Shown here: positions 3,207 through 22,004 of the stretch, one piece after another
How positions within the stretch are numbered: the first letter of the stretch is position 1
Layout: each line of letters begins with the position of its first letter
Program-made: the position numbers and the translations under genes
IMG/VR virus record: IMGVR_UViG_3300028840_001065
Span: 1 to 28,293 of that record
Origin: a virus
Direction: 5' to 3' (one strand)
DNA length: 28,293 nt
Notes under the pieces: model-generated
What the model saw: only the letters and a program-made list of their open reading frames with translations
Told to the model about the DNA's origin: nothing
The model's database searches: none

Positions 3207-3605
3207 TCAGCGTTTACGGCGGTCTTGCAGGACAACGCCGGCTGCGATTGGCCCCCATAACGGGTGCGTCGTCGGTGTCGGGATACGAACCGACTGAAAC
3301 CGCGTCAGGACATCGCTATCCATGCGCCGGTCTTCCGGGCCGAACAGGTAGATCGCGCGGCCTCTTGGATGACGAAACTGGTGAAGTGGGACTTTTCCAT
3401 TAGGATGAGCCACGACGGGTTTTGCCCGAAGCGAACACACCAACTCATCGACGTTCGCATCAGGCGAAACCTCCATTACGTTTGCCGCGAAGGACTGGCC
3501 GAGCTCGCGCCAAAAGTCCCGGTATAGACTGGCTGCCGACGCCGACGCAGTTGCCAGATCGAAGGCCGGTGTGAAGTAGGCGATGGTAATTGTTGACTTA
3601 GACAC
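3207..3605 (-). CDS. SPOUT-fold-like protein B (degenerate SpoU/TrmH-like)
   Basis: 132 residues from GTG 3605. The C-terminal half resembles the knotted end of SpoU/TrmH RNA 2'-O-methyltransferases: FRHPRGRAIYLFGPED (compare the family's 'vfGpE..G' motif 2) and, after VRIPTPTTHP, LWGPIAAGVVLQDR (compare motif 3 'sLNvavA.aivLyd'). The usual motif 3 Asn is not present, and the N-terminal half (residues 1-65) shows no clear motif 1 N-x-G-x-x-R. It therefore looks fold-related but may not be an active methyltransferase. It is clearly similar to the protein at 21543-21962, sharing VPLxxFxHP, YxFG, SDV and AxGxVLxD. Its gene lies between the tail-tip module and the endolysin. Confidence 0.55.
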   Translation of the reverse strand: MSKSTITIAYFTPAFDLATASASAASLYRDFWRELGQSFAANVMEVSPDANVDELVCSLRAKPVVAHPNGKVPLHQFRHPRGRAIYLFGPEDRRMDSDVLTRFQSVRIPTPTTHPLWGPIAAGVVLQDRRKR

Positions 3606-3606
3606 G

Positions 3607-3888
3607 TTATTTCTGCCTGGTCACGAAAGAATTGAACTCCAGCCCCGCTGCGCTGCACTTTCTGCACTCCACGTCGGCATCGAACAGCGCGCCCGGCTTG
3701 ACCTCATTCCACTGCAGCCAGACAAAATCATCGAACTTGTCGAGCGCAAGTTGCAGGATCAGGTGCCGCCGATCCCACTGTGCATAGATGCGCCTGCCGT
3801 CTGGAAGATCCGCAACTCCTAGCCGTTCGACATCAACCACGTCCATAATCTCGCGGCAGACGGGACACGCGCGGACGAACTTCGCCAT
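3607..3888 (-). CDS. Small zinc-ribbon-like protein
   Basis: 93 residues with two CxxC pairs, C8/C11 (RACPVCRE) and C75/C78 (VECRKCSA), separated by a domain rich in Asp and Trp (YAQWDRRHLILQLALDKFDD). The spacing suits a single zinc-binding site holding the two ends together. It starts in a TGATG overlap with the tail-tip gene upstream and is followed within two bases by the SPOUT-like gene. I do not recognise the family. It could be a small regulatory or nucleic-acid-binding protein or a minor tail accessory protein. Confidence 0.65.
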   Translation of the reverse strand: MAKFVRACPVCREIMDVVDVERLGVADLPDGRRIYAQWDRRHLILQLALDKFDDFVWLQWNEVKPGALFDADVECRKCSAAGLEFNSFVTRQK

Positions 3889-6242
3889 CAGGAAACCTTC
3901 GGGATCGCGCCGGACACGATAATGTCGGCGTTTGCCAAGTCGCTAGACAGTAAGGATTCGTCGAACGGACCGATAAATTTGTATCCGTCTGTCGACCACT
4001 TCGTCGAATTAACTTCCAAAAAACAAAAACCGACCGCGTTCGATAAATACGCCTGGGCGCAAAAATGGAAATTATCGATCCAACCACGCGACACGGAAAA
4101 CAAATCTGGACACGAGTTCGCGTAAGTCGTCGTCGTTGAGGCGCATGGCGCGGACGATGCAGAAATATATTCAACCAACGCAACCGCCGGGCCCGCCGTA
4201 CCCGATCCGCCGGACAGGACATCAACCGTCGTCGACAGAACGTTGCCGTCCGTGTTGACTTGGGACCAGTCCGAACGCTGATAAACGCCGTCTACCCACG
4301 GCGTCGACCAGATTCCGGTTGCCGTAGATTCGACCGACGTTCCGGCGACCGCCGAACAATCCGGCGCCAGCCCGGAATCATGGACATAGGTTCCGTTGAC
4401 AGTCCCGACAACGGCGTCGCTAGTGAACACGCCGCTACGTTTCGCCGTCCAAATCGTTTTAACCTGCGAATCCTTGATGTAACAGGCGCCCGTATCGCTG
4501 GACGCGGATTCCGCGGATTCATGATAAAACGAAACGACGCCGGACGACGTAACCTTGACGCGCGCCGTCCCTGTCCAAGTTGAACCGCATGAATAGAAAG
4601 CGTCGTATATACCCTGCCCGACGACGCATTGAGTTTTTGCGGTCTTTCTGTCTTCCGTGCCGAGATAATCTGGCACCTCGACAAAGGTCGCGCCGGACGA
4701 ATTGGCCTCTACTTTATAAGTCTTAGACACCGCGCCGTCGTATTTCCTGCACGTTCCTTTGAAGTTGCAAGAAACGTCCATTGCGGAAACCGTCCCTAAG
4801 CAAAAATGTTGCGATTCGGTTTCTTGCGCCTGTTCCCAATCGATCGACCAGGACGACCCGTTATAAGTGAACCACCCCATCCCGGACCGATCGTCCGCGC
4901 CAATCGCGCCGTTATACGAATAATGCCCGATTGCTTCAATGTCGCCGGACGAATTCCTGCCCGCCGCCGACGCGTGATATGGATAATTCGGCGATCCGTT
5001 CGTCGAGTTCGGCAAAGCCGGAAGCAACGTTTGATTGTGAACAATCTGTCCGCCGCTTGTGATCGGCGTTATATATTGCGGATAGCATGGATTGTTAGCG
5101 TCTAGTCCGGGATAAACGACAGAAACGTGGTGCAACGTCCCGGAAAAATCTTTAACCCAATGCGTCGACCCGACTTTCGGAATCGACCCGGTCGACTTAA
5201 CGTATTCGTCGCCGACGTCGTCCCACTGAACGAAAATATATTCCGAATTGTCCCCATCCCAAAATTGAAACCCGCCGGGATATTTGCATATTTTCGGGTG
5301 ATCGACGAACCCGATAACCGTCGGGTTGAGCCACGGTTGCGTCGACCCCTCGTCGAATGAAACGACGACATGGTCCCCGACCTGGAACGCCCACGAATTG
5401 CAGTCCATATAAACAATCGGGACCGCTGTTGCTTTGAAATTCTTTTTCGTATCAATGGACGACGCGTCCGCGCGCCAAACGTCGGACTTTCGTTCCAATG
5501 GGTCGAACGCTATCGAACAGGTATCTGCGCCGTAATCGATATCGATAATCGTCGCGTAACGAACCGTCGGGTTCCAGGTTTCGGCGCCGGGTAGCATTGC
5601 CATCGCGACGTAAAGTTCCGTCGATAGCAATTCGCGCGGCCCGAAATAGTGACCCGCGCCGGAATCGGTGTCCGCGTCCGGGATTACGTCGAGAATATTT
5701 CCCGGCCCGTCGTATTGTCGCCCCTGATAGCTAACCGATACCAGTTCGCCCGCAGCGATTTTCGTATAATGGCCCGTCGCTGGCGGATCGTTGTCGTCGT
5801 CGCGTAAATCGCGACACCATAGCGATTCGGTTTGTTCTATTTCGGCTTTTTTATTGGCTAGGTAAATTCCGCGCCAATACAAGCGCGAGCGTTCAAGCGT
5901 GACCAAATCCTGCTCAAGTTTCCACGGTCGCAATTCTGCGCGCGCTTTGCGCGCCTTCGTCGTCGCGTCTAGAACGGCGTCCCAATTTTCCGGAGACTTG
6001 TCCGCGTTGTAAGCGTTAATCGCCGAATCAAGTTCCGACAGCGCGGTGGAAAGTTGTGATTCGTATTCGGAAACCTTCGGGTCGACTTCGTCGTCGAGCC
6101 AGTCTTTCAATTCCTGCCGTCGATTCGCGACGATTTCTATCAGCGCGTCCAAGCGTTCCGCGTCGCCGTGCTGCATTTTTACGGAATATTGCGCGTCGCC
6201 CAAGTGCGAAATAATGGTTCCGCGCGCACTACTATTTGACAC
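3888..6242 (-). CDS. Large tail-tip/adhesin protein, 784 aa
   Basis: The last gene of the tail-tip module. It starts at GTG 6242, overlapping the previous stop. The N-terminus (GTIISHLGDAQYSVKMQHGD) is followed by a long helical, coiled-coil-like region at about residues 25-150 (IEIVANRRQELKDWLDDEVD and after). A beta-rich section with VSVSYQGRQYDGPG and VSFDEGSTQPWLNP repeats could be an OB-like or baseplate domain. The rest is Ser/Thr/Gly-rich with many Cys, typical of a distal fibre or receptor-binding part. I infer a central tail fibre or spike from size and position; no named family is evident. Codon use (AAA, AAT, CGA, TTG) is that of the tail-tip block. Confidence 0.65.
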   Translation of the reverse strand: MSNSSARGTIISHLGDAQYSVKMQHGDAERLDALIEIVANRRQELKDWLDDEVDPKVSEYESQLSTALSELDSAINAYNADKSPENWDAVLDATTKARKARAELRPWKLEQDLVTLERSRLYWRGIYLANKKAEIEQTESLWCRDLRDDDNDPPATGHYTKIAAGELVSVSYQGRQYDGPGNILDVIPDADTDSGAGHYFGPRELLSTELYVAMAMLPGAETWNPTVRYATIIDIDYGADTCSIAFDPLERKSDVWRADASSIDTKKNFKATAVPIVYMDCNSWAFQVGDHVVVSFDEGSTQPWLNPTVIGFVDHPKICKYPGGFQFWDGDNSEYIFVQWDDVGDEYVKSTGSIPKVGSTHWVKDFSGTLHHVSVVYPGLDANNPCYPQYITPITSGGQIVHNQTLLPALPNSTNGSPNYPYHASAAGRNSSGDIEAIGHYSYNGAIGADDRSGMGWFTYNGSSWSIDWEQAQETESQHFCLGTVSAMDVSCNFKGTCRKYDGAVSKTYKVEANSSGATFVEVPDYLGTEDRKTAKTQCVVGQGIYDAFYSCGSTWTGTARVKVTSSGVVSFYHESAESASSDTGACYIKDSQVKTIWTAKRSGVFTSDAVVGTVNGTYVHDSGLAPDCSAVAGTSVESTATGIWSTPWVDGVYQRSDWSQVNTDGNVLSTTVDVLSGGSGTAGPAVALVEYISASSAPCASTTTTYANSCPDLFSVSRGWIDNFHFCAQAYLSNAVGFCFLEVNSTKWSTDGYKFIGPFDESLLSSDLANADIIVSGAIPKVS

Positions 6243-8043
6243 TGGTCACGGTTTCCGAAAGATTATTGACCGACCCATTGATCGCGACGCGAGAAACCGG
6301 ATAGTTCACGCCGTTGATTCGTAACACGTCGCCAGGGTTGACCGATAAAACATGATGCAGACGAATGACCGTCGTTCCGTCCAAATCGGCGCGCATGTAG
6401 GACAAGTCGCCGCGATCGACCGACCAAACCTTCACCGACGGTTCCGGCGTCCCCTGCGCCTTCAGAATCACGCCGTAATCGGAGCCGGCGCCCTGTCCGC
6501 AGTAAACCGTTGCGCTTTGGATCGTCGCGTCGTTCGACATTTTTTCCGACGACTGGAACCCGTGAAACAGTCGCGCCCGCGAAATCACAAGTTCGGACCC
6601 GACTTCCGCGACCAGTGCCGCCAGTTGTGACACGTCCGGAACCGTGACCGAAATCGTTTCGATCCCTTCGCTTTTTTGAATTGAGATCGACCCGGCGTCC
6701 AGGTCGGCGCCGCCGATCGATGCGACCAACCCGAACGCGTCCGGTCGCCTGGACGACCGCGGCAATTCGTAACCGATCGAAAACGCGGAATAATCCGGCT
6801 TGAAAACAATCGTTCCGGTGGCGGTTGCCATTGGCGCCGTCGCCGTAATTGTTAAAACCGCGTCCCATTTGCCAATCGTTCCGGTGGCGGTTGCCATTGG
6901 CGCGGTCGCGGTAATTGCGATCGTCGCGCTTGCGCCGCCCGGAGGTTCGAACTCATGCCACCAGGCGTCATTCGTTCCATAAACATAATGCGCGACCAAA
7001 CCACTTCCGTCGACGTCGTCCATTCCGAACGAATCGTTCCAGTATGTTGTACCCCAATCGTTCGGATAATCGATCGTGTCGGTGTTCCACCCGCCAGCGT
7101 CTGAGTACGCTATAGATAGCGTCAGTGCGTTGTAGTCCTGCTCTAAAAAGCAAACCATATAATGGTTTGTCCAATCGTAAATAAACGGGTTAGAATCCGC
7201 GTTCGAGCTTCGACCCCCCCCTGTTGCTGTATATCCGTGATTTGTGAATCCGGTCGATGTTATTGAGATTTCATAGATTCGATGCTGAGTCGTTAAATAA
7301 TGCGCCGAATACCATAGCGTCGTATCAGAACGCGTCCAGGTATCGATTACCGGATAGACTGAATGCAGTCCGACTCCCGAGCCAAAATTAAACGTGTATC
7401 TTGTAGTCCCTAGCGCGACGGCGTTTACCATGTAAATCCATGTCGAGCTTCTGTATATCAACCAGTTCCCGTCAATGATCCCCGCGGTGAATGAATCCGG
7501 CGACGGATTCGCCGTCAAGTCTGTTGATACGTCATAATTTGACGACCATGATGTCCCTTGATTTGTCGACACGATATAGCTTACATCATAGACGGTGCTG
7601 CCCATCGACCGCCGGGAATGCGTGAATATTAAATACCAATTGTCGGAAGCGTCCGCGCCGAAACAACCCCTGTATTGAGATTCTGATGCGGTATGAACGG
7701 CGGACGGTGTCAACGCCCAAGTTTCCGTCGAGGTGTCGAATAACGCTAAAACAAGGTCTGCCCCGTCGACGAATTGCAAAATTAAATAACCGGACACGCG
7801 GTCGTAAGCGACTGACTCCGATCCCGCCGAAGTTGTTACGGTGTAATTTTGCGTGTAATCAACAGTTCCAAACCCGTCGCATGGGTTGGTGATTGACGTG
7901 ATTTTGTTAACGTTCCATGTTGCCGTTGTTCCAGACGTCGTGACGTAGCAGTCGAATATTTTGTTATTACGCGTAACGATTGCGCGCGAGTCTAGGTCAC
8001 CAGGGGTTTTTGTGCTGTCGCCGTCAACGTAACAGGATGTCAT
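6232..8043 (-). CDS. Tail-tip protein: beta-propeller-like N-terminus plus hub-like C-terminus
   Basis: 603 residues. The first about 365 residues look like a beta-propeller of the BNR/sialidase type: short repeated strands, with an Asp-box-like STNQGTSW at about 159-166. Then comes a 22-residue tandem repeat (ITATAPMATATGTI twice, about 380-412). From about residue 415 a separate domain begins (FSIGYELPRSS, SISIQKSEGIETISVTVPD, LSYMRADLDGTTVIRLHH, VNPGDVLRINGV). It resembles phage tail hub domains and also the 202-residue protein two genes upstream. The propeller may bind a host glycan while the C-terminus docks to the tail. The function is inferred from architecture and position. Confidence 0.65.
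   Translation of the reverse strand: MTSCYVDGDSTKTPGDLDSRAIVTRNNKIFDCYVTTSGTTATWNVNKITSITNPCDGFGTVDYTQNYTVTTSAGSESVAYDRVSGYLILQFVDGADLVLALFDTSTETWALTPSAVHTASESQYRGCFGADASDNWYLIFTHSRRSMGSTVYDVSYIVSTNQGTSWSSNYDVSTDLTANPSPDSFTAGIIDGNWLIYRSSTWIYMVNAVALGTTRYTFNFGSGVGLHSVYPVIDTWTRSDTTLWYSAHYLTTQHRIYEISITSTGFTNHGYTATGGGRSSNADSNPFIYDWTNHYMVCFLEQDYNALTLSIAYSDAGGWNTDTIDYPNDWGTTYWNDSFGMDDVDGSGLVAHYVYGTNDAWWHEFEPPGGASATIAITATAPMATATGTIGKWDAVLTITATAPMATATGTIVFKPDYSAFSIGYELPRSSRRPDAFGLVASIGGADLDAGSISIQKSEGIETISVTVPDVSQLAALVAEVGSELVISRARLFHGFQSSEKMSNDATIQSATVYCGQGAGSDYGVILKAQGTPEPSVKVWSVDRGDLSYMRADLDGTTVIRLHHVLSVNPGDVLRINGVNYPVSRVAINGSVNNLSETVTSVK
6807..6903. repeat. Direct repeat, 31 bp exact, period 66 bp
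   Basis: Bases 6807-6837 recur exactly at 6873-6903, with partial similarity beyond. This encodes two copies of a 22-residue unit (ITATAPMATATGTI plus linker) between the propeller-like and hub-like domains. The period is a multiple of three, so unit gain or loss keeps the frame and would only change linker length. Confidence 0.85.
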
Positions 8044-8045
8044 GT

Positions 8046-8447
8046 TTAACTAGCCGGTTGCGTCCAAGTGTACGAAGTCAGTTGTAACGCGTCGTCGACC
8101 GCGATCGTCGCGTTCGAAATGATCGCTTCGCCGCCGCCGCCGGATTCGGAAACCGCCACGTCGTTGACGACCGTCGTCCCGTCCGTCTTCAAAAATCGCC
8201 CCCACCCCGCCGTCCCCGCCGCGACCGCCGTTCCATTGACGGCGGCGGAAAGAGAACAGGCGCCGGACGCGGCGGCGGACATCGCGTCGGCGGGAAGCGT
8301 GAACGTGACTAGAAGCGTCCCGGTCGCGGTATCGTCCGCGCTTGTCGGTTGCGTTCCGGTGTACACTTTGAACGATCCGGAATTAAGCGAGTCGCCGTAT
8401 GCGTCCGCCAGCGTGTTTCGTTGCGCCGTCGATAGTCGGTTTGCCAT
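8046..8447 (-). CDS. Tail-associated structural protein, 133 aa
   Basis: The N-terminus MANRLSTAQRNTLADAYGD is followed by GSFKVYTGTQPTSADDTATG and then an Ala/Val-rich beta domain ending QLTSYTWTQPAS. This pattern (LST..RN...D, small numeric 'YTG.QP..ADD' motif, final 'itsWt') is a recurrent family of phage proteins encoded near tail-tip genes, of unknown exact role. It starts in a TAATG overlap with the previous gene and is followed by the propeller gene after two bases. Confidence 0.65.
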   Translation of the reverse strand: MANRLSTAQRNTLADAYGDSLNSGSFKVYTGTQPTSADDTATGTLLVTFTLPADAMSAAASGACSLSAAVNGTAVAAGTAGWGRFLKTDGTTVVNDVAVSESGGGGEAIISNATIAVDDALQLTSYTWTQPAS

Positions 8448-9055
8448 TAGGTCGGGTCCGGTTCGGTGATAATTTGCGTCGCCTGGGTTTCGTTTGCGTT
8501 GATCGAAACCGATTCGATCGAAACCGTTTCCGTGTCAATAAGCACGGAGTCGTCGGGATAAACCATATAAGACAACGGAATCGACCATTCGCGCCCGCCG
8601 CCGCTATTTTTGCGCTCGAAAAACACGTCGGCGATCGTGTTCGTTTTTGCCGCCGCGTTTGTGAACGTCGTCGAGCCAGTTAGCGTAATCGAAGAATTTT
8701 CGGCGCCGCGGGAATAATTCAGGTCGTTCAAATCGAACGTCGCGACGTCCGCGTCCGGCCCCGCGGTTCCGCCTTCATAAATCCACGCCTTTCGGATGAC
8801 TAGGTCGCCATTCGGCCGCGCGTCGATTGCCGAAATGATTTCCGACGCCCACGGCAAATAGACGGTTGCGGTCGAGTCACGCGACGAATGCAGCAAAAGC
8901 GCCAACCCATAAACAGGCAACGCGTAATCGGTTGTCGAGTCCGCGGACCCGGTCAGTTCCGCCGAATAGCGAACCGCCCACGGTTGCGGAACGGTTGCGC
9001 CGCCGCCGTTGACTTGCAGATGATAGCCAACCGTAAGCGCGGAAAAATCAGACAT
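8447..9055 (-). CDS. Tail-tip hub-like protein, 202 aa
   Basis: Starts MSDFSALTVGYHLQVNGG. Its order of motifs parallels the C-terminal part of the 603-residue protein downstream: a strand-rich core (GLALLLHSSRDSTATVYLPW), then LVIRKAWIYEGG, a GAENSSITLTGSTTF segment, FFERKNSGGGREWSIPLSY, YPDDSVLIDTETV and an INANETQATQI end. I take the two as paralogous tail hub or distal tail subunits. The 5' end overlaps the upstream gene by eight bases (ATGTCTGA). Confident as a virion gene, tentative as a hub. Confidence 0.6.
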   Translation of the reverse strand: MSDFSALTVGYHLQVNGGGATVPQPWAVRYSAELTGSADSTTDYALPVYGLALLLHSSRDSTATVYLPWASEIISAIDARPNGDLVIRKAWIYEGGTAGPDADVATFDLNDLNYSRGAENSSITLTGSTTFTNAAAKTNTIADVFFERKNSGGGREWSIPLSYMVYPDDSVLIDTETVSIESVSINANETQATQIITEPDPT

Positions 9056-9824
9056 AAACCTTTAGCCGGATATGCGACGCGTTCGATAGTTGCTGTTCCG
9101 TGACATACGTCGGGACGACGCGTTTCAGCCATAACCCGATCGATTGCCCCGCGGTTAACGAAACGGACAACGCGGTCGCTTCGGTCGGTTGAACCCAGGT
9201 CAACGATCCAGACGGTTCGGTTAGTTCGTTCGCGATCGTGGTCGCCGTCCCGCCCGCGCCCGCCGCGTCGAATGCCATAAAGACAGAGTCTTGACCGATC
9301 GAACCGGACGTCGACCGAAACCAAACGTCAACCGAGTAAGTTTGCGTCCCGTCCGTGTTCTTCAGGTACAAACAACGGTAATTTGTTGACCCGGCTTCCG
9401 CTTCGCCAGGGGGGATATTGTCGAACAGGTTTTCAATCGGGTTCTTAATGCTAACTTGATCGGTGTAATCCTGCGTCGGCAAACTTGCCGCGACGACGGT
9501 TACGGATAGAACCGCCGCGTTTCCGAATGACGGTAAGTAATACGTCCCGTCAGAACTAACGTCGACCGGCGTCCCGCCGCCGTTGCCCGGTTCAAACCAG
9601 ACCATTTCTTTCGTCGGCGTCGCGGAGTAATCATAAACGACCGAACCGACCCCCTCTAGGTTGCCGCGTCCATGATTAACAGTTAGCCCGGAAATATTGG
9701 TCGTCTGCCGGGTCGCGGTTTGATGCGAAATCGCCGTCGACGAAATCACGCCGCCCAGGGACGCGTCAGGGTCCGTGTTCGATGCCCCGCCGGAAAGGTA
9801 CGCGACGACGTCTTCGCCCGCCAT
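9048..9824 (-). CDS. Tail structural protein, 258 aa
   Basis: Acidic and beta-rich. A central stretch VSIKNPIENLFDNIPPGEAE followed by GSTNYRCLYLKNTDGTQTY recalls phage and tailocin structural proteins with the pattern 'NLFD...G...YRc.YvkN', whose exact role is not known to me. It ends with WLKRVVPTYVTEQQLSNAS and a short beta end. The start (ATG 9824) overlaps the stop of the previous gene by one base. Probably part of the tail tip. Confidence 0.6.
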   Translation of the reverse strand: MAGEDVVAYLSGGASNTDPDASLGGVISSTAISHQTATRQTTNISGLTVNHGRGNLEGVGSVVYDYSATPTKEMVWFEPGNGGGTPVDVSSDGTYYLPSFGNAAVLSVTVVAASLPTQDYTDQVSIKNPIENLFDNIPPGEAEAGSTNYRCLYLKNTDGTQTYSVDVWFRSTSGSIGQDSVFMAFDAAGAGGTATTIANELTEPSGSLTWVQPTEATALSVSLTAGQSIGLWLKRVVPTYVTEQQLSNASHIRLKVYV

Positions 9825-10174
9825 TATGCCGCCCCGGTCAAATAAACGTTTGCCGTTAAGACGCTTCCGGTGACGTATTTTTGTTTGATTACGCCCAGAT
9901 ATGCGCCGTCCGGCGTGACAACGGTCAGTTCAGAATAATTTTTAATCAAATAGTCCAGCGTTTCCAGAACGTCCGCGGGCGCCGGGTCGACCTTGATTCG
10001 CAACGTTCGGTCGCCGGGTGAATAGCCAGAGTCGTTCAGATAAACGCCGCCGGATAACAGTCGGGTTCGCTGGACCCGGCGTTCGATGTTTTCAATATCG
10101 GACGTCGCGACGTCACAATCAAACACGATCGCCCCGGACGGATCGAATGTTTTAGTGCCTAACGCAATTTTCAT
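9824..10174 (-). CDS. Tail protein after the tape measure, 116 aa
   Basis: Starts MKIALGTKTFDPSGAIVFDC. It includes IENIERRVQRTRLLSGGVYL, with LNDSGYSPGDRTLRIKVDP and a helix (DVLETLDYLIKNYSE). It is the first gene after the tape measure, the position of the distal tail protein or lambda gpM, and its strand-helix-strand layout would fit a small distal tail ring subunit. I cannot name the family. Five of its six Lys codons are AAA, unlike the head genes. Confidence 0.6.
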   Translation of the reverse strand: MKIALGTKTFDPSGAIVFDCDVATSDIENIERRVQRTRLLSGGVYLNDSGYSPGDRTLRIKVDPAPADVLETLDYLIKNYSELTVVTPDGAYLGVIKQKYVTGSVLTANVYLTGAA

Positions 10175-10186
10175 TTGTCGCCCCGT

Positions 10187-12880: not shown

Positions 12881-12882
12881 GT

Positions 12883-13520: not shown

Positions 13521-13535
13521 GCGACCTCCTTATTA

Positions 13536-14525
13536 TCAGCCGGAGAACTCTACCCCGTCAGACTCTGCCGAGATGGTGCAAGCAGACTGGATGGAATCCC
13601 CGGCCGGGAACGTGCGCGCGATGCCGAGCTTGCCCTGGTCTACACGGTACGGCGAGTCGTACCGGTCCGGGTAGAAGCGGAAAAACAGCGTCTCGTTCTT
13701 CAGCGTCACCAGACCGTCGGTGATGCCGTCCTGCAGCCTGGCCGTAAACGATCCCTGGCCGAGCGAGGAGGAAGTCGACCCGAGCGTGGAACCGTAGACC
13801 TGCGTCGAACTGACCGAGTGCGAAGTCTCCGGCGGCACGAAATCGGACGCCAGCGCCACCTCGGCAAAGATCGGCGCCGAGTAGCTGGCGTGGACGGCCT
13901 TCGCCACGTCGCCGGTGTGGATCTGCGGCAGCGCGGAGTAAAAGGTCACCGTGCCGCCGATGTAGTTGACATCGTAGAGCGGATAATCCGCGCGCTCGGT
14001 ATGCGTGCCGACCACTTGGAAGATCTCCGCCGAGGTGATCGGCGCGGCGGTATCCGAGGTCACCCGTACCTGGCCGATCTCCACCGAGTCGGTCGGAATG
14101 TAGGGGGGGCCACCGGCGGCACCTCGCGTCTCGGAAAATGCGGTCGTCGCGCCATCGGTGCCGGCTACGGCCGCGATCGCGCCGGCGGACGATACGGTGA
14201 TACTGATCACCTTGGACACTGCGGTGGCGGGACGGGTGATGGATACGTCGGTATCGGCGGCCACGCTGTCGCCGGCGACGCCGTTAAGGTTGAGCGTCAG
14301 CGCGGACACGTCGACGACATCGTTAGAACCGGACACGGCCGGGATGATCACGCCACCGGTCAGCAGTCCGTTCGGCAGTACGCTGGGAGAGTAGCCGGAC
14401 CGCCGCGACCACAGCGACGCGCTGGAGTTGAACGTGGTGTTGTCGCCGCTGTCGGTCAGCGCGCCCATCGCATAGGACTGTTGGCCGGCCTCGTATTCAA
14501 GTTTCGCATTTTCAGCAGTTGGCAT
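13536..14525 (-). CDS. Major tail tube protein
   Basis: 329 residues, mostly beta strands, beginning MPTAENAKLEYEAGQQSYAM. The central part has Ig-like features (VSKVISITVSSAGAIAAVAG, rich in Ala/Val/Thr) that may be an inserted decoration domain. The C-terminal part (SFTARLQDGITDGLVTLKNE, FFRFYPDRYDSPYRVDQGKL) recalls tail tube subunits. The gene lies immediately before the G/GT chaperones and has a strong intrinsic-terminator-like hairpin just upstream of its ribosome binding site. It is longer than lambda gpV (246), consistent with an extra domain. Confidence 0.75.
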   Translation of the reverse strand: MPTAENAKLEYEAGQQSYAMGALTDSGDNTTFNSSASLWSRRSGYSPSVLPNGLLTGGVIIPAVSGSNDVVDVSALTLNLNGVAGDSVAADTDVSITRPATAVSKVISITVSSAGAIAAVAGTDGATTAFSETRGAAGGPPYIPTDSVEIGQVRVTSDTAAPITSAEIFQVVGTHTERADYPLYDVNYIGGTVTFYSALPQIHTGDVAKAVHASYSAPIFAEVALASDFVPPETSHSVSSTQVYGSTLGSTSSSLGQGSFTARLQDGITDGLVTLKNETLFFRFYPDRYDSPYRVDQGKLGIARTFPAGDSIQSACTISAESDGVEFSG

Positions 14526-14556
14526 GGTGGCTCCCCTTCATTTGCTAGGGTTCAAG

Positions 14557-14578
14557 AAAAAACCCCGCTGGCGGGGTT
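14557..14578 (-). terminator. Intrinsic-terminator-like hairpin upstream of the tail tube gene
   Basis: On the minus strand AACCCCGC-CA-GCGGGGTT is followed at once by T-rich sequence (TTTTCTT). It is a textbook intrinsic terminator, located within the late operon between the tail terminator gene (ends 14590) and the tail tube gene (starts 14525). Too little space follows for a full promoter before the tube gene. Late transcription must pass it by antitermination or partial read-through, or it serves as an RNA-stabilising 3' end. Confidence 0.75.
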
Positions 14579-14589
14579 GATGTTCTGGC

Positions 14590-15048
14590 TCAGATGAACG
14601 GCCGACTGGTCGGATCACCCTTCGCCGTCGAATACACGATCACGTAGGTCAGGGACGCTACGATGTACGTTTTGCCGGCGTCCGGATACACGATGTCGCC
14701 GGAGGTATAACGCACCGACTCGGCCAGGTCAGTCAGTTCGTCACCGTAGACCTCGACCGCACGGCGACCGTCGCGAAGCAGCTGGTTGCCGATCACCGAC
14801 GGATTGCTGCCGGCCAGATCGTCGATCAGCTCGACACGGACGCGCATCGTCTGCCGCGACACCTGGAAGTCGTCCGGCGAGGCATCCTCGGCGCCGTCCC
14901 AGATCACCGCCGCCGGGAACGACGCCGGGTCAATATCGAGCACCGCACGTTGCACCGTGGCGTCGATCCCGTAGCCGTTTGCGGTCTGGATGGCCTCTAC
15001 CCGCCGGACCAGCGCCTGGATGACCTGTTCGCGCACGCTGTCCTGCAT
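14590..15048 (-). CDS. Tail terminator/completion protein (gpU/gp10-like)
   Basis: 152 residues beginning MQDSVREQVIQALVRRVEAI, followed by FPAAVIWDGAEDA, a long strand TMRVRVELIDDL, a helix-rich middle and the pair SLTYVIVYSTAKGDPTSRPF at the end. This alpha/beta layout and the final 'vvY.t..gdP' segment are typical of phage tail terminator or completion proteins. It lies between neck and tube genes, as expected. The start overlaps the previous stop in TGATG with GAGGAGG upstream. Assigned by layout and position rather than by a strict motif. Confidence 0.7.
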   Translation of the reverse strand: MQDSVREQVIQALVRRVEAIQTANGYGIDATVQRAVLDIDPASFPAAVIWDGAEDASPDDFQVSRQTMRVRVELIDDLAGSNPSVIGNQLLRDGRRAVEVYGDELTDLAESVRYTSGDIVYPDAGKTYIVASLTYVIVYSTAKGDPTSRPFI

Positions 15049-15380
15049 CAGACCCTCCTCGCCGTGACGGTGAGCGTCACGCCGTCGTTGCCGGCCTCGT
15101 TTTCGACGCGATAGGTGCCGGAGGCCACAGTGATGGTGTCGCCGATCCGCGGATCCGGCACGTCGGCGATCTGGATCAGAATTTCCACCGACTCGGACGA
15201 GGCCCGCATATCGATGCCGTTGCCGAAATACGTCGAGTCACGGTCGATGACCACGATGATCGGGTCCGGTATCGCCGGACTCGGCACCCATCCGTTGGCG
15301 GTATAGGTGGCCGACTCGCCGAGGCCGTCGAAGATATCCACCGCGGCCTGCGCGGCGATCGACTGGAAGGTGTCGGCCAT
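15048..15380 (-). CDS. Head-tail joining protein (FII-like candidate)
   Basis: I start at ATG 15380 (MADTFQSIAAQAAVDIFDGL), which overlaps the upstream stop as TGATG; a longer frame from 15422 begins in Arg-rich sequence and is not likely. The 110-residue product has an N-terminal helix and a beta domain ending GDTITVASGTYRVENEAGND and GVTLTVTARRV. This resembles the lambda gpFII/neck family, where the final 'G..Y.V......G...l.l' turns form a small barrel. Role: connector between filled head and tail. Moderately confident. Confidence 0.65.
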   Translation of the reverse strand: MADTFQSIAAQAAVDIFDGLGESATYTANGWVPSPAIPDPIIVVIDRDSTYFGNGIDMRASSESVEILIQIADVPDPRIGDTITVASGTYRVENEAGNDGVTLTVTARRV

Positions 15381-15709
15381 CAGGCGATGTTCCCCTGCAG
15401 CAATTCGACGCCGACGAACCACGTCGTTTTGAGTCCGCCGTCATCGACCTGTATCTCGATCCACGCCGGACCGGTGGCGGAGATGGCAGTATCCGTCGAC
15501 GAGAACACCACCACGACCAGGCTGTTGAGCCAGTCTGCGCCAGAGGTGCCGGACGACTGCGCCACATCGCCGGTGAACTTCGTCGTGCGCGAGTTCGATA
15601 CGATCGCAGCCTTGACGGCGGCCGACGACATGTCGAAGGTCGCGCCGTTTTTCTTCAGCGTCACCGGCAGCGTTACATCATCGCCGGTCACGATCTTCGG
15701 TTTCAGCAT
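15380..15709 (-). CDS. Neck or minor structural protein, 109 aa
   Basis: Starts MLKPKIVTGDDVTLPVTLKK, then NGATFDMSSAAVKAAIVSNS and a beta end (AWIEIQVDDGGLKTTWFVGV). This recalls the small Ig-like N-terminal domains of phage baseplate proteins (BppU-like) used to attach subunits to a virion. It lies between accessory virion proteins and the FII-like gene. It overlaps the previous gene by seven bases (ATGCTGA). Family assignment is tentative. Confidence 0.6.
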   Translation of the reverse strand: MLKPKIVTGDDVTLPVTLKKNGATFDMSSAAVKAAIVSNSRTTKFTGDVAQSSGTSGADWLNSLVVVVFSSTDTAISATGPAWIEIQVDDGGLKTTWFVGVELLQGNIA

Positions 15710-15915
15710 GTGTCCGTCTCCAGCGTCTCGGCGGCGGCGTGCGCGGTCATGGTTTCGATCAGGTCAACGGACAGGACGTGCACGTCTACCGACGCGGTTG
15801 CCGCCATCGTCAGATCCGCCGACGACTCCTGGTACGCGTCTGCGGTCAGCACCGGTCCCACGAACACGGTATCGCCGCCACCCGTGCCGGGCGGCCTCAA
15901 TCCGAAGAGTTCCAT
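15703..15915 (-). CDS. Small virion-module protein, 70 aa
   Basis: I start at ATG 15915 (MELFGLRPPGTGGGDTVFVG), because the longer frame from 16071 begins with an Arg-rich stretch that merely re-reads neighbours. The product is Thr/Ala-rich with beta propensity (ADLTMAATASVDVHVLSVDL) and no recognised domain. It overlaps the 33-residue membrane protein gene by 19 bases and the next gene by 7. The tight overlaps support coding. Confidence 0.55.
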   Translation of the reverse strand: MELFGLRPPGTGGGDTVFVGPVLTADAYQESSADLTMAATASVDVHVLSVDLIETMTAHAAAETLETDTC

Positions 15916-15998
15916 ATATCCCTGATCAGGTAGAGCGCGGCGACGAGCGCAACGCCGGCAGCGACGAACAGCACGACCTGCAATCCGAAAAAGTCCAT
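15897..15998 (-). CDS. 33-aa single-TM protein inside the structural module
   Basis: The ATG at 15998 is preceded by AGGAGGGA with good spacing; that Shine-Dalgarno sequence overlaps the stop of the previous gene. The product MDFFGLQVVLFVAAGVALVA plus LYLIRDIWNSSD is one membrane helix with a short acidic end. Its place among virion genes, far from the lysis region, is unusual. It could be a membrane-targeting assembly factor or a small injected virion component. The function is unknown. Confidence 0.65.
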   Translation of the reverse strand: MDFFGLQVVLFVAAGVALVAALYLIRDIWNSSD

Positions 15999-16006
15999 GT
16001 TCCCTC

Positions 16007-17281
16007 CTACTGCGGCGTGATCTGCGACAGGTCCGCGTTGGTGTCGAACTGGTACAGCGGCGTGGTGCCATCCTCGGCGTAGATGGTGATGACGTTGCCG
16101 TTTTTGTCCCACACGCGGCGGTTGAAATGCGCTTCGTGGATCATCTGCAGCATCTTGCCGGAGCTCGTCTCGTTGACCAGCGTCATGCCGTTGTAGGTGC
16201 CCGACGGCATCCAGTCGCCCGTCACCGAGTCGATCACCTTGCCGTCACCGCGGACGACGATCGTCCCGCCCGTTACCGTCGCCTGGTCGATCTTCACCTG
16301 GCCAGAGGCCAGGTCGATGCTCACGCTCTCGCTGCCAGTCTTGTTGGTCAGCAAAATGCCGCCGTTGTAGTTCCTCATGGCGAGCGCCTGGCCGGACCCG
16401 CCCAGATCTATGGTCGGCGTGGCGGTGCCGGGCACGCCGGACCAGCAGTCGAGGAAGTGCGCCTCCTGCGTGCCGCCGAGCGTTACCGTGCCGGGCGCGA
16501 GGACGCATCGTTCCAGGTATCCCGAGACATAATCGAGATCGTGGATCTCGCATTCCTTGACCTGCGCCAGACCATCCAGCGTGCCCTCGATGTGCGCCTC
16601 GTAGAACTCGGCCTTGTAGACATTTGCCGCGGCGGTGATGCTGATCGTCGACTTGCTCACCGATTCACCGATGAAGGTCATCGCGGTGTAATCGTTGCCG
16701 CTGGTAATCGTCAGGTCGCCGATGACAAAGATCGTCGTGAACCCGCGCGTCTGCGCGATGGCATAGGCGTCGCCGAGGTTGTTCACGGGCTCCTGCGGCG
16801 TGCCGACCGGAAAATCAGTGCCCGAGAACGCCGACAGCACGTCCAGCGTGACGCCGCCGTTGTACGACGCATACTGGATGGCCTGCAGTTCCGACAGCGT
16901 GGCCGATGCCGAAGACGTTTTCGTCACCGTCACGTAGGCGCTTGGCGCCACCGGGTTGCCGAACGTCGGGTTTGCCTCGTTCTGACCTTCGTTCTGTCCG
17001 ACCAGGTTGCCGCCGGTGATGTCGCAGACCACCGTCGTCGGCCCAGGACGCGCCTCGAACCGCAGCCGCCACCCGTAGAGCAGCGTCAGCGTGATCCCGA
17101 CCAGGACGCCGCCGCCGAGCGGCTCCTTGCCGGATGCCTTGCAGATCTGCGGCTCCTCGAGGTTGAGCATCTGCCCCTCGTAGTCCTTGATCTGGTTGTA
17201 CAGTTCCTGGATCGTGATCTCGGTGTCCGGCGCAGCGACCTCGATAATCTTTTCAGGTTGATCGAACGTCAGCGTCGCCAC
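16007..17281 (-). CDS. Accessory virion protein, 424 aa (beta-helix/fibre-like)
   Basis: GTG start at 17281 with GGAG seven bases upstream. The N-terminus (DTEITIQELYNQIKDYEGQM, then LYGWRLRFEARPG) resembles the N-terminus of the 793-residue protein upstream, suggesting a shared virion-binding domain. A hydrophobic, Ala/Thr-rich stretch follows. Then comes a long region of short repeated strands with Gly turns (GTLDGLAQVKECEIHDLDYV, GGTQEAHFLDCWSGVPG, GQALAMRNYNGGILLTN) typical of right-handed beta-helix or fibre proteins. I infer a head- or neck-attached fibre or spike. Confidence 0.65.
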   Translation of the reverse strand: MATLTFDQPEKIIEVAAPDTEITIQELYNQIKDYEGQMLNLEEPQICKASGKEPLGGGVLVGITLTLLYGWRLRFEARPGPTTVVCDITGGNLVGQNEGQNEANPTFGNPVAPSAYVTVTKTSSASATLSELQAIQYASYNGGVTLDVLSAFSGTDFPVGTPQEPVNNLGDAYAIAQTRGFTTIFVIGDLTITSGNDYTAMTFIGESVSKSTISITAAANVYKAEFYEAHIEGTLDGLAQVKECEIHDLDYVSGYLERCVLAPGTVTLGGTQEAHFLDCWSGVPGTATPTIDLGGSGQALAMRNYNGGILLTNKTGSESVSIDLASGQVKIDQATVTGGTIVVRGDGKVIDSVTGDWMPSGTYNGMTLVNETSSGKMLQMIHEAHFNRRVWDKNGNVITIYAEDGTTPLYQFDTNADLSQITPQ

Positions 17282-17447
17282 GGAGTTTCTCCATCTTCAG
17301 GCGATGATCTGCCTCGCGAATGTAGAATTCGAGTTCTTCGATCGTCGCCCGCTCTTTCCTGATCGCCTCCTCGAACGTCCGGATGTTTCCCCGGCAACGA
17401 TCGATATTCGCGCGCAGCGCATCGACGTCATACTGAATCGTCGCCAT
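17253..17447 (-). CDS. Small coiled-coil protein, 64 aa
   Basis: Starts MATIQYDVDALRANIDRCRG and continues as one long charged helix (IRTFEEAIRKERATIEELEF, then YIREADHRLKMEKLRGDADV) with clear heptads. AAGGAG lies 10 bases before the ATG at 17447. It lies between two large virion protein genes and overlaps the next by 29 bases. It could be an assembly chaperone or trimerisation helper for the neighbouring fibre-like protein; unrecognised as a family. Confidence 0.65.
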   Translation of the reverse strand: MATIQYDVDALRANIDRCRGNIRTFEEAIRKERATIEELEFYIREADHRLKMEKLRGDADVRST

Positions 17448-17461
17448 CAGGCGCGCGCTCC

Positions 17462-19843
17462 TTACTGGTAGATGGTGTCCGGGTTACGAATCACCGCCTG
17501 CGACATGCCGGATGACTTGATGGAGTTCGCCGCCTCGAACGGCAGGATGACGCCGGCCTGGCGTGCACGCACCACCACGTCGATGTCCGTCGAATGGATG
17601 ATCGTGTCGAACTCGTTTCCTGGAGAGCCGTCGGTGCCCTGTGTTTCGTACACGAACAGAAACGGGATATAGGCCGTGTCCGATCCGGTCAGTGCCTCGG
17701 GCACACCGTTGACAATGTACGCATCCGACGACCAGTCGGTAACCGGCGCGTTTGAGCCGTCGTTGGTCAGCGTCAGCGTGGTGGCGGTGACGTTTGTGAC
17801 AAAGCCATAGGTGTTCTCGGTGTCGTTGAACACCAGATCGCCGACGAGCACCCCGGCATTGACGAAATCACCGTCGGCATCCACCAACGAGGTAGCCGAC
17901 CCGCCGGCGTCTGCAGTGGCGGAGAGGGTGTCCAGCGTCAGCACGGCGGCGGAATATGACGCGTAGCGCAGCGGGTACTCGTACTGCTGGTCGGTGTCCA
18001 CCACGATCACTGTGCCGTCAGGCGGCGCCTCGTTGGAGATCGACGCCGACATGGTGATGGACGTCGCACCCTGGGCGGTCACTGTACAAGTGTACTCGTC
18101 CTTCTTGAGGGTGCCGTCCGGGTTGGTGCGGTACACGCCGATGCGGTCGCCGGCGCGGGTGTTCGTCACCGACACCGAGACCGTGTTCGGCGGGATCTGC
18201 ACGGTACCGTCGTCGTCGATCAGCTGGAAGCTCTGGTCGGCGGCATAGTTGGTCAGCCAGACACCGGGAGCCGCGAACATCGTGCCGCCCGCGAAGGTGC
18301 CGAGAGGCGACTGCTTGGTCGGGTTGATGGTGCGCACCGAGTCCACCGTTGCCGTCACCGTGGACGAACCGAACACCACGTTGTCGCCGGCTTTTGTCAC
18401 CGCGCCGGAGGTGAAGAATCGCACCTGGCGCAAGATCACGTCGCCCGTGGTGCCATCGTCATGGTCGGCAACGATGACGCCCTGCGCGGCCAGCGTGTTA
18501 TCCGACTCGAACAGATAGATCGTATTGCCTTCGGTCCAGTCGCCGCCGGCCTGGGACGAGTATTCGACCTGATTCTGCGAGCCGATGTACTGCTCGCCGT
18601 CTGTGCCGTCGATGGCCGTCGCCGAGCCGCGGCGGGTGATGTACTTGAAATACTCGTACACCTCCGACAGCGGCCGCCCGGCGCAGTTGACGCTGATCGA
18701 GTACGGCCGCGTGCCGCTGCCGTTGTTCAGGTTGCCGGTGGTGGCGGCATGGGTGATGGTGACGTCCGTGAACGTCGCGCCGTAGACGTCGCTCGGCGCG
18801 ACCGCCGTCGCGGTTTCGCTCGAGGTCTGGCCGGTGAACCCGCCAGTGCCCGCACTGAAATCGTTGAGCGGGTCGCCGATCAGGTAATAGTCGACCGTGA
18901 CGTTCGGGGCGGTGCCGGAGGACGCGGCGACCACACCCTGGATCGTCGCGTCGCTGTCGTCCTGGATGATCTCGCCGACGGTGAAGTTGCCGGAGGCCGT
19001 GGTGAGCACCATCTGGCGCAGGCCGCGGGCCTCGTTAAGGTCCGGCGCGGTGGCCAGCGGGATCGGGTTGCGTCCGCCGTTGGTGAGGTCCACCTCGAAA
19101 TTATCGTAGAGCGACCCCGGCCGGCGGTTGAACACCTTGACGACGCCATCGTCGATCTCGGTACCCATGTCCTTGACCTTGACGAGGATGTCGATGTGGC
19201 CGTATCCCCACCAGTCCGTGGATGCCTTGGCGTCGGTGACCTTGCTGCCGTCCTGGATGACGTACATGGTCGTGTTCGACGCCAGCGAGCCGATGGTGTA
19301 GATGTTGGCCCACAGCTGCTCGCCGGTGACGTTCGTCGACACCGTGATGTTGCCGGTGCCGGTGCCGCTGGTGATGGTGAACGCCTCCGCGGAGTCGAAC
19401 AGGTCAGTCGCCGGGTCGTCCGGCCGGATCCACAGGTAGTTCGTCGCGCCGGTGTCATTGTAGTCGAGCACCGTGCCGCTGTAGCTCGACGTCGTGATGG
19501 TCTTGCCGATGTCGCCGGAGACCATGGCGACCGTCTCGGAATAGGCGACCTTGAACACCTCGTTCGAGGCCCACCCGTTCGTGGTGATGGCGCCACCGTA
19601 AAGGTACTGCGTCGACACGTCGTCGATGAACCAGCCGTTTACCAGCGTGAACTCGGTCGGCGTCTGTGCCGTCATCGGCACCTGGTCGTCCATCTGGTTC
19701 AGTTCGTCGAACAGATCCTGCAGCGCGGAATAGAGCTGGCGCACGGTGTAGGTGGTGCCCGCGCCCGTGTAAACGATGCGCTTCTGGTTGTTCTCGCTTT
19801 TGTAGTAGACGGTAAAATCACCACTGAGGATCGTGTCGGACAT
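17462..19843 (-). CDS. Large accessory virion protein, 793 aa
   Basis: Begins MSDTILSGDFTVYYKSENNQ, then YTVRQLYSALQDLFDELNQM and FTLVNGWFIDD, similar in order to the start of the 424-residue protein downstream. Later parts are modular and beta-rich: WWGYGHIDILVKVKDMGTE, GEIIQDDSDATIQGVVAASS, YEYFKYITRRGSATAIDGTD and ADAGGSATSLVDADGDFVNA. The low Cys content and high Gly/Thr/Asp are typical of virion surface proteins of environmental phages. AGGAGG lies upstream of ATG 19843. I infer a virion surface or whisker-like protein. No enzyme motif is visible. Confidence 0.65.
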   Translation of the reverse strand: MSDTILSGDFTVYYKSENNQKRIVYTGAGTTYTVRQLYSALQDLFDELNQMDDQVPMTAQTPTEFTLVNGWFIDDVSTQYLYGGAITTNGWASNEVFKVAYSETVAMVSGDIGKTITTSSYSGTVLDYNDTGATNYLWIRPDDPATDLFDSAEAFTITSGTGTGNITVSTNVTGEQLWANIYTIGSLASNTTMYVIQDGSKVTDAKASTDWWGYGHIDILVKVKDMGTEIDDGVVKVFNRRPGSLYDNFEVDLTNGGRNPIPLATAPDLNEARGLRQMVLTTASGNFTVGEIIQDDSDATIQGVVAASSGTAPNVTVDYYLIGDPLNDFSAGTGGFTGQTSSETATAVAPSDVYGATFTDVTITHAATTGNLNNGSGTRPYSISVNCAGRPLSEVYEYFKYITRRGSATAIDGTDGEQYIGSQNQVEYSSQAGGDWTEGNTIYLFESDNTLAAQGVIVADHDDGTTGDVILRQVRFFTSGAVTKAGDNVVFGSSTVTATVDSVRTINPTKQSPLGTFAGGTMFAAPGVWLTNYAADQSFQLIDDDGTVQIPPNTVSVSVTNTRAGDRIGVYRTNPDGTLKKDEYTCTVTAQGATSITMSASISNEAPPDGTVIVVDTDQQYEYPLRYASYSAAVLTLDTLSATADAGGSATSLVDADGDFVNAGVLVGDLVFNDTENTYGFVTNVTATTLTLTNDGSNAPVTDWSSDAYIVNGVPEALTGSDTAYIPFLFVYETQGTDGSPGNEFDTIIHSTDIDVVVRARQAGVILPFEAANSIKSSGMSQAVIRNPDTIYQ

Positions 19844-19881
19844 TGCGTTGGCCTCCTAGAATGCGCCGGTGACTTCCACCG

Positions 19882-21552
19882 TCAAGAAACATTGCCGTCG
19901 ACGATCAGCGTGATCGTGACGTTCAACCCGTTGGTTGTAATCGTTGCCGGCGACACCACGGGCACGTATCGCGTGCCGGTGCTGCTCTTGCGCACGCGGA
20001 TAATCACGTCCAGGTCGCCGGAGTAGTTGTACGAGTCCGATACCTGGCCGGACGCGTTGGTCGTCGTCGGCGAGACGATGGCCGACCCCTGCACGCCGCC
20101 GGTGTAGTCGTAGATCGCCACCGACGCGCCGGAGATGACCGTGCCGCCGGCATCCTTGACCGTCACCAGCAGCGTTTTGTTGTTCGTGACCGTCACCGTG
20201 CCGCTGGCGGTACTGCTGAACTCGGAGGCCGACGCGTTGCCGGTACCCGTTACGCCGATGGTGATGTCGGCATTTGTTCCAGAGTTCAATCCATGCCACA
20301 GCGTGCCGGACGAGAAATCCCCGTAGAAGTTGAAGTCCTGCCAGGTAACCGCGTAGTCGCCGGTGTACGTGAACCGCGTCATGTACTGCGTCGATGGCGT
20401 CCCAGACGTGATGAACGACAACTTCTTCAGGTTGTGCGTCAGCGTCCCGGCGCTCGGCGTCTGGCCGAACAGCACCCCGTAGTTGTTGGCCGTGCCAGTC
20501 GGATCGATGATGAAACACGACAGCATCTCGGCGCCGTTGTTCGTCGAGCCAGGAGCGATCTCGCCGCAGTTGGTGAACGTCATCGAGATCGCGCTGGTCT
20601 TGGTGTTGTCGTCCAGCGCGATGCCGGACTCCGCGCCCGTCCACTGCGCGCCGTACAGGTACACGGTATCGAGGTCGGCGATGTCTGTCGCGCTGTCCCA
20701 TTCCCATGCCGGGCCAAGCGTCTTGATGCTGCCGCCGGCCACGCCCTGGCGCGAATCGCCCGAACCGACAACGCTGCCGATCTGCACGTCGGTGGTGCCG
20801 GTCCCGTTGCCGGCGACCGTAATGCCGTAGTAGGCGTCGCCGACCTTCTGGTTGTCAAACACCAGCGCGTCGCCGCTGTAGTCGGAAAAGTCCGTCGTCG
20901 CCGTGCCGGCGCTGTCGCCGATCTGAAACGGCGTCTTGACCAGGTAACCGCCTGGGATCGGCTTGACGTAATCCAGCGTCGCGGTGTTGTCGAGGCTCGC
21001 CACCTCCGACCACCCGGCACCCGCGGTGGTATTCGAGCCCGACACCGTGAACGCCGCGCCGGACCCGTAGCGCATCCAGTCCACAAAGCAGTTCTGGCTC
21101 AATTTTGACTTTGCGGTGTTCTTGAACCCCGCGCCCATCTTGACGATATCCGTCAGCGTGGCCGCCGTGCCATTGTTCCAGTCCGGCGTCTGCGACGTAT
21201 GCGCCCCGAACAGCTCCCAGCCGCCGCGATAGTTGTCCGAGCCGCCGACGTACCAGCACGACTGGTTGCCGGACGAGTCCTCGACGCAGATCTGGATGCC
21301 GCCGGCACTCTTGGTGTCCAGCGTCGAGGCCGAGAACGACAGGAACTGGGCGCAGATGAACGTCGACGAGAGACTGGTCGACGTCTTCGACGCGCCGAAC
21401 ATCCGATGCGTCTCGATGTCGACGTCAATGCCGATACATCCTGTGCCCTCGCGCTGGAAGTCTGCATCCAGTCCGACAGTCGGGTCGCCCGTCCAGTTAT
21501 CGGTATCGCAGTCGTCCCATTCCGACAAATTATCCGTGACAGTCAGCGCCAC
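19882..21552 (-). CDS. Accessory virion protein, 556 aa, lectin-like N-terminus and Ig-like C-terminus
   Basis: GTG start at 21552, overlapping the previous gene by 10 bases, with GGAG upstream. The N-terminus (LSEWDDCDTDNWTGDP, FQREGTGCIGIDVDIETHRM) and following strands look like a concanavalin/lectin-type sandwich. The middle is beta-rich (DTVYLYGAQWTGAESGIALD). The C-terminus (NNKTLLVTVKDAGGTVISGA, YDYTGGVQGSAIVSPTTT, ASGQVSDSYNYSGDLDVIIR) resembles a transthyretin/carboxypeptidase-regulatory-like Ig fold often seen on phage surfaces. Possible capsid-attached carbohydrate-binding protein; inferred from fold resemblance only. Confidence 0.6.
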   Translation of the reverse strand: MALTVTDNLSEWDDCDTDNWTGDPTVGLDADFQREGTGCIGIDVDIETHRMFGASKTSTSLSSTFICAQFLSFSASTLDTKSAGGIQICVEDSSGNQSCWYVGGSDNYRGGWELFGAHTSQTPDWNNGTAATLTDIVKMGAGFKNTAKSKLSQNCFVDWMRYGSGAAFTVSGSNTTAGAGWSEVASLDNTATLDYVKPIPGGYLVKTPFQIGDSAGTATTDFSDYSGDALVFDNQKVGDAYYGITVAGNGTGTTDVQIGSVVGSGDSRQGVAGGSIKTLGPAWEWDSATDIADLDTVYLYGAQWTGAESGIALDDNTKTSAISMTFTNCGEIAPGSTNNGAEMLSCFIIDPTGTANNYGVLFGQTPSAGTLTHNLKKLSFITSGTPSTQYMTRFTYTGDYAVTWQDFNFYGDFSSGTLWHGLNSGTNADITIGVTGTGNASASEFSSTASGTVTVTNNKTLLVTVKDAGGTVISGASVAIYDYTGGVQGSAIVSPTTTNASGQVSDSYNYSGDLDVIIRVRKSSTGTRYVPVVSPATITTNGLNVTITLIVDGNVS

Positions 21553-21962
21553 CGGTTCATGCTCCAGTCAGCCAGGACGATGCCGCAGGCGGTATGCGCG
21601 TGCAGCGGACGGTCGGACGCGATCTCCACGTCTGATCGGTCAAGCTGCCCGTAATCAGAACCGAACACGTACGCCGGATCATCCGGGTGCGTGAACAGCG
21701 GCAGCGGCACGCCGCCTTGCTCGACGAATACCGGCGTTTTGTTCTGGTACAGCGCCAGCGCCTCGTCGAGCGAACCGACCACGGCCAGGTCGATCTCGGC
21801 GTCACCGAAGCGCGGATTGAGCGCGTCGCAGTCAACCACGCAGAGCTTCGTCACGCCGAACGCCTTGCAGGTGTGCGACCAGTGGGTGAAATATTTCTTC
21901 TGGACCCGCGGATCTTGCAATACCACCGGCAGATCCCAGTGAAAAATGACCGCGCCACTCAT
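21543..21962 (-). CDS. SPOUT-fold-like protein A (degenerate SpoU/TrmH-like)
   Basis: I start at ATG 21962 (MSGAVIFHWDLPVVLQDPRV), with GGAG nine bases upstream; a GTG five codons earlier is less likely. The 139-residue product follows the layout of SpoU/TrmH methyltransferases. LPVVLQDP is followed by CKAFGVTKLCVVD (family: 'vvL.dP.NpGNiG...RtadAFGv..l.lv'), then AYVFGSDYGQLD (motif 2) and LHAHTACGIVLADW (motif 3). The motif 1 N-x-G-x-x-R positions read as THWSHTCK here, and the motif 3 Asn is His, so catalysis is doubtful. It is related to the protein at 3207-3605. Its gene sits between decoration protein and large virion proteins. Confidence 0.6.
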   Translation of the reverse strand: MSGAVIFHWDLPVVLQDPRVQKKYFTHWSHTCKAFGVTKLCVVDCDALNPRFGDAEIDLAVVGSLDEALALYQNKTPVFVEQGGVPLPLFTHPDDPAYVFGSDYGQLDRSDVEIASDRPLHAHTACGIVLADWSMNRWR

Positions 21963-21976
21963 CGCGAACTTCTCCA

Positions 21977-22004
21977 CCCCGGCGCAGCGTCAACCACGCC
22001 GGGG
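21977..22004 (-). other. Strong hairpin between the decoration and SPOUT-like genes
   Basis: A perfect 8-bp GC stem (CCCCGGCG/CGCCGGGG) with a 12-base loop lies between the decoration protein stop (22012) and the next start (21962). No T tract follows, so it is not an intrinsic terminator. It may protect the upstream, highly translated mRNA from 3' exonucleases or mark an RNA-processing site. Confidence 0.55.

Follow-up and report, generated by a model that had tools for sequence, protein, structure and literature searches.

Two degenerate SPOUT-like proteins encoded in the late structural operon of a temperate-looking phage

SPOUT proteins are best known as methyltransferases, and a 28,293-base virus record (IMGVR_UViG_3300028840_001065; the whole stretch analysed, hereafter the window) raises the question of what two SPOUT-like proteins that lack invariant residues of their family could be doing among virion genes. 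An earlier note had singled out the two proteins, A at 3207–3605 and B at 21543–21962, without giving their strand; both are present, on the minus strand, and the motifs that it quoted are found letter for letter. The whole structural operon, including genes A and B, lies on the minus strand of the window and runs in the order terminase, portal, protease-capsid fusion, decoration protein, B, a block of large proteins, head-tail joining genes, tape measure, tail-end proteins, A and endolysin, so that B directly follows the decoration protein and A precedes the CHAP endolysin in this late operon, as had been described (Table 1). A has a GTG start one base past the stop of the preceding gene. B may start either at ATG 21962, which has GGAG upstream (139 aa), or at GTG 21977 (144 aa), and its last 10 bases are shared with the start of the next gene. 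Frame scores favoured the coding frame for B and, weakly, for A.

Table 1 Features of the window that bear on proteins A and B.
Feature	Position in window	Strand	Remarks
CHAP-domain endolysin gene	2513..3169	-	Downstream of A
Protein A, degenerate minimal SpoU/TrmL-like SPOUT protein	3207..3605	-	132 aa; GTG 3605 to TGA 3207
A motif 3 region	3219..3263	-	PLWGPIAAGVVLQDR; invariant Asn replaced by Trp
A motif 2	3330..3356	-	AIYLFGPED, intact
A family block	3366..3392	-	VPLHQFRHP
A motif 1 region, Y28–F39	3489..3524	-	YRDFWRELGQSF, against N-x-G-x-x-x-R-A-A-x-C-Y; hand alignment
93 aa protein with two CxxC pairs	3607..3888	-	Adjoins A on its upstream side
Two large tail-end proteins (603 and 784 aa)	3888..8043	-	Upstream of A
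Large low-similarity proteins (556, 793 and 424 aa, and small ones)	15380..21552	-	After B
Protein B, degenerate minimal SpoU/TrmL-like SPOUT protein	21543..21977	-	Ends at TGA 21543
B motif 3 region	21564..21608	-	PLHAHTACGIVLADW; invariant Asn replaced by His
B motif 2	21648..21677	-	PAYVFGSDYG; Glu replaced by Asp, Asp by Tyr
B family block	21684..21710	-	VPLPLFTHP
B motif 1 region, Y29–F40	21858..21893	-	YFTHWSHTCKAF; Asn and Arg lost; hand alignment
Head decoration protein	22012..22377	-	phrog_122; adjoins B on its upstream side

The source phage is temperate by appearance. Read by eye, positions 1–119 of the plus strand look like the C-terminus of a tyrosine integrase and are followed, at about 203–250 on the minus strand, by an apparent 3' half of a tRNA gene (tRNA-Lys-like), and the two elements together resemble a prophage attachment site. 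Between A and the ATG of the endolysin gene lies a hairpin (3160–3200, minus strand) with a CCGCC-GGCGG stem, six T and an AGGAGG in its 5' arm, which might terminate transcription or act as a switch on translation of the endolysin; its fold z is −1.4 and it is absent from the list of the terminator scan.

A and B are related to each other (BLASTP E 5e-6, 29% identity over 95 residues, in one comparison) and to SpoU/TrmH proteins, as the earlier note had held. An HMM of intact family members, which is biased in that these members were fetched with patterns taken from A and B, scored A at 45.5 bits and B at 26.0 bits, against 2.9 bits for the best of 1000 shuffles. With one family block masked in the HMM, A still scored 33 bits, and with both pattern stretches masked A scored 8.7 bits and B fell to noise, indicating that the sequence signal of B lies mainly in PLxxFxHP and the YVFG region. 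Three lines of evidence are free of this pattern bias. In Pfam, A matched PF04452 (E 0.0077) and PF00588 (E 0.02, 15.4 bits) and B matched PF00588 (E 0.069, 13.7 bits), all under the Pfam cut-offs, which for PF00588 is a curated 29.7 bits; five intact relatives score 54.6–72.7 bits. Among 72,556 plasmid records searched by tblastn, the top matches of A (best 8e-4) and of B (best E 0.1) were nearly all annotated RNA methyltransferases. The sequence of A also matched that of a Thermus TrmL structure (PDB 5co4) at 7e-4. A Pseudoalteromonas 'RNA methyltransferase' (P0008), found via B, matched A at 6e-11 and B at 2e-8. Chance similarity to the family is rejected on the shuffles together with the independent matches to the Pseudoalteromonas protein, 5co4 and the plasmid records. 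Judged from sequence, the case that A and B are homologous to the minimal, extension-free SpoU/TrmL-type SPOUT RNA 2'-O-methyltransferases is strong for A and good for B. The uncharacterised Pseudoalteromonas protein, encoded beside a YcgN-family gene, is the clearest sequence match to both and has the PLxxFxHP and YxFGPED blocks in common with them; unlike A and B, it has all catalytic motifs intact and resides on large bacterial replicons rather than in a phage structural operon.

The residues lost from A and B were identified by reference to 34 intact relatives (32 viral and 2 bacterial), in all of which (34/34 for each residue) the motif 1 Asn, the motif 1 Arg and the motif 3 Asn are present. 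The motif 1 Asn is replaced in both proteins, and the motif 3 Asn is Trp in A and His in B, in agreement with the earlier observation that both lack it. In a gap-free hand alignment the motif 1 Arg corresponds to Glu in A and to His in B, but A has an Arg, R33, one residue off the catalytic position, so the loss is certain only for B; in A the Arg is lost or shifted, and probably lost. The claim that motif 1 is missing or altered thus stands for the Asn of both proteins and the Arg of B, and for A it is narrowed to an Arg that is lost or shifted. R33 might still act as a catalytic Arg in an altered activity. The motif 2 F-G-x-E reads FGPED in A and FGSDY in B, and A also keeps the Ile-Pro ahead of motif 3. 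In the predicted structures the motif 1 region overlaps helix 17–35 of A and helix 27–39 of B. Catalysis has been ascribed to the motif 1 Arg and to the motif III Ser/Asn (PMC12123411), and R20 of E. coli TrmL is critically conserved across the SpoU family and has been discussed alongside tRNA-binding residues (PMC3763551).

AlphaFold modelled A with a pLDDT of 77 and a pTM of 0.71, confidence being lowest (~52) at residues 31–40 within the altered motif 1, and B with a pLDDT of 84 and a pTM of 0.80. Among the matches listed by Foldseek, SPOUT methyltransferases were on top, the best being 5co4 (TrmL, 6e-6) for A and 1v2x (TrmH, 3e-7) for B. VIA-align matched the A model to YibK (Z 13.2, 119 residues, 2.6 Å) and the B model to TrmH (Z 16.9, 142 residues, 2.8 Å). 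The alignment behind both models consisted mostly of intact SPOUT proteins, so the models support the fold without being independent proof of it. The SPOUT alpha/beta core is predicted to be retained in both proteins, and the A model, aligned over 119 residues with the knotted YibK, is consistent with a trefoil knot. The models are SPOUT and neither protein was placed in an unrelated family; of the earlier proposal that a knotted methyltransferase fold has been reused, the predicted fold and the lost residues hold, and the new use is what we infer. TrmL/YibK, a minimal SPOUT tRNA Um34/Cm34 2'-O-methyltransferase of the SpoU/TrmH clade, resembles A and B in length and in having no extension domains, matches their predicted folds over nearly the full length and, for A, was the top match both by structure and by PDB sequence. 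Unlike TrmL/YibK, A and B are encoded in a phage late operon and lack the Asn of motif 1, that of motif 3 and, with certainty only in B, the catalytic Arg.

The family is present at about 70 viral loci, with intact motifs at nearly all of them. Scanning IMG/VR with a profile gave 56 loci and scanning by pattern gave 23 stretches, some contigs being hit by both, and the translated proteins were read; the 23 stretches came from the pattern with the spacing of B and all read as intact members of the family, and the pattern with the spacing of A had no match in viral contigs. These phage-borne minimal SpoU methyltransferases (L032, L053 and L016 in IMG/VR, and those of Rhodococcus phages NiceHouse and Trina) belong to the same family as A and B, and the IMG/VR members share their blocks and similar size. 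Unlike A and B, they have intact motifs in nearly all cases inspected and occur mostly as one copy per contig. One phage subgroup (L016, L069, L071–L073, L075, L076, L079, L081, L082, L084, L087, L088 and L090) has YLLGA(E/K)D instead of YxFGPED as motif 2, with the other motifs largely kept. A 108 aa protein without motif 1 (L022) has a full-length second copy in the same contig, a 119 kb viral one whose two SpoU-like genes lie at 1395–1721 of L099 and 2162–2623 of L098; a 444 aa ORF near the short gene is presumably an RNA ligase. Two matches in one record were found only in the window and in the L022 contig among 47 records, which are contigs and may be incomplete.

The neighbours of intact copies were surveyed by tallying 84 proteins around 18 loci in smaller viral contigs (about 18 to 66 kb). 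Among the 25 commonest of 147 PHROG families of neighbours, the ones that carry a description were NinG, DNA methyltransferase, integrase, HNH, replication initiation, primosomal, ssDNA-annealing and tRNA-splicing ligase families. RecT/Erf/Sak and RtcB were among the recognised neighbours in the 18 contigs, and the Pfam tally of 25 neighbour families around these loci held no recognisable structural protein. As far as sampled and recognised neighbours go, intact copies sit among replication, recombination, DNA-methylation or integration genes, unlike A and B. Two degenerate copies in a late operon therefore make the window phage unusual, the other viral copies being nearly all intact and, in the contigs sampled, having recognised neighbours of the replication and recombination type.

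No second genome or phage with such a degenerate pair, or with A or B, was found in the collections searched, in keeping with the earlier remark that no described system with this pair was known. A tblastn search of 50,697 phages with A and B gave no match. Single-protein scans of viral contigs with A, B, the 784 aa tail protein and the capsid protein returned no relatives, nor did a scan with a poorly aligned A+B profile, and a scan of genome contigs with an A+B C-terminal profile and the capsid protein returned none; these contig scans depend on a handful of short exact patterns and are weak evidence of absence. PADLOC models, a library of defence rather than counter-defence proteins, matched neither A nor B, a result that has no bearing on the counter-defence role raised in the earlier note. 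Searches of the open-licence literature found nothing relevant on phage SPOUT pseudo-enzymes and no functional study of the intact minimal phage SpoU methyltransferases.

A tree built on 51 hand-aligned columns joined A and B with support of 98/91 on extremely long branches, whereas a full-length tree placed them apart, with branches of 4.2–5.2 changes per column (median near 0.5). Of 10 jointly novel positions, A and B share the residue at 2 (p 0.15, not significant), and the idea that A and B have many derived residues in common was dropped. Because so few novel positions are shared, and because the tree that joins the proteins depends on a hand alignment and very long branches, descent of A and B from one degenerate ancestor is unproven.

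The surroundings of B differ from those in related phages. No PHROG or confident Pfam match was obtained for the block between the decoration and head-tail joining genes, and tblastn of its 793 aa protein against phages gave no match. On the tail side, the second large tail-end protein (784 aa) has relatives in Marinobacter phage PS3 and ctUtU524. The related head modules of seven named phages continue after the decoration gene with small genes unlike those of the window, and when nine named phages with head or tail genes in common with it were searched by profile, none gave a SpoU-like match; given these differences, B and the block that follows it look inserted. Across 2513–28247 of the window, GC3 is ~0.8–0.88 in most head-side genes and 0.60–0.73 from the tape measure through the tail genes, and the drop at the tape measure gene suggests a mosaic origin. 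The GC3 of A (0.62) and that of B (0.80) are each like those of the gene's own neighbourhood and differ from each other as the neighbourhoods differ. The reading frames of both genes are unbroken, and the core strands and family blocks are kept, which together with the neighbourhood-like GC3 suggests long residence.

The reading that we favour, and to which we give about an even chance, is that A and B are pseudo-methyltransferases kept as compact, probably dimeric binding folds that act as late assembly or (adhesin) accessory factors. They would descend from the minimal SpoU/TrmL class that many phages carry intact and, being encoded in the late structural operon and having lost residues needed for 2'-O-methyl transfer, would be made late, along with the large, putatively adhesin-like or fibre-like proteins beside each of them, and would bind protein (or RNA) but not methylate it. 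What favours an assembly or accessory role is these adjoining large proteins and the overlap of B with the next gene. A is basic (pI 9.9, net +5), towards the upper limit for intact viral copies, and B is acidic (pI 5.2, net −7); that the two form a knotted mixed dimer as a virion or assembly component, which would mean recruitment of the SPOUT fold into phage particle morphogenesis, is a long shot. It is unlikely, though not far-fetched, that they serve instead as RNA-binding decoys or regulators, which would retain some of the RNA-recognition surface of the family and associate with tRNA, rRNA or phage mRNA late in infection without methylation, perhaps blocking or shielding a site. Members of the SPOUT family modify mostly tRNA or rRNA, and one is reported to modify protein (PMC9508554), and the charge of A would suit such a role; the acidity of B speaks against it, though intact bacterial relatives are acidic too, as do the loss of the motif 1 Asn/Arg surface, to which the TrmL residue discussed with tRNA binding belongs (PMC3763551), and the result of ARAGORN, which found no complete tRNA gene in the window.

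Two captured methyltransferase genes that lost their function and are drifting as decaying remnants would account for the very long branches, the loss of invariant residues and the failure to find relatives of the same form. Both frames are nevertheless fully open with core strands and family blocks kept, and the same state would be needed in two separate genes, which makes decay decidedly unlikely. Phages usually discard dead genes quickly, and this too counts against it. It is improbable that A, B or both are altered enzymes that still bind SAM and methylate RNA by means of a different residue, or a protein, as does the SPOUT enzyme Sfm1 (PMC9508554): motif 2 of A still has GPED, an Ile-Pro still precedes its motif 3 and an Arg stands beside its catalytic position, but the Asn residues of motifs 1 and 3 are gone in both proteins and the motif 2 Glu is gone in B. 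That B is not a SPOUT protein at all, its resemblance being one short block arisen by chance, is very improbable; the vanishing of its profile score when two family blocks are masked and its Pfam E-value of only 0.069 would fit, yet it is similar to A, its best plasmid matches are nearly all RNA methyltransferases, one of which, the Pseudoalteromonas protein, it matches at 2e-8 when compared directly, and its confident SPOUT model extends over nearly the full length.

The pair is real and somewhat unusual, a single example in the collections searched, and the search that led to this view brings out a broad phage family of intact minimal SpoU methyltransferases. If A and B are indeed binding folds kept for assembly or an accessory task, a virion operon with two disarmed members would mean that the knotted fold has been reused without its chemistry, and the pair would give a tractable test of what else the SPOUT fold can do.
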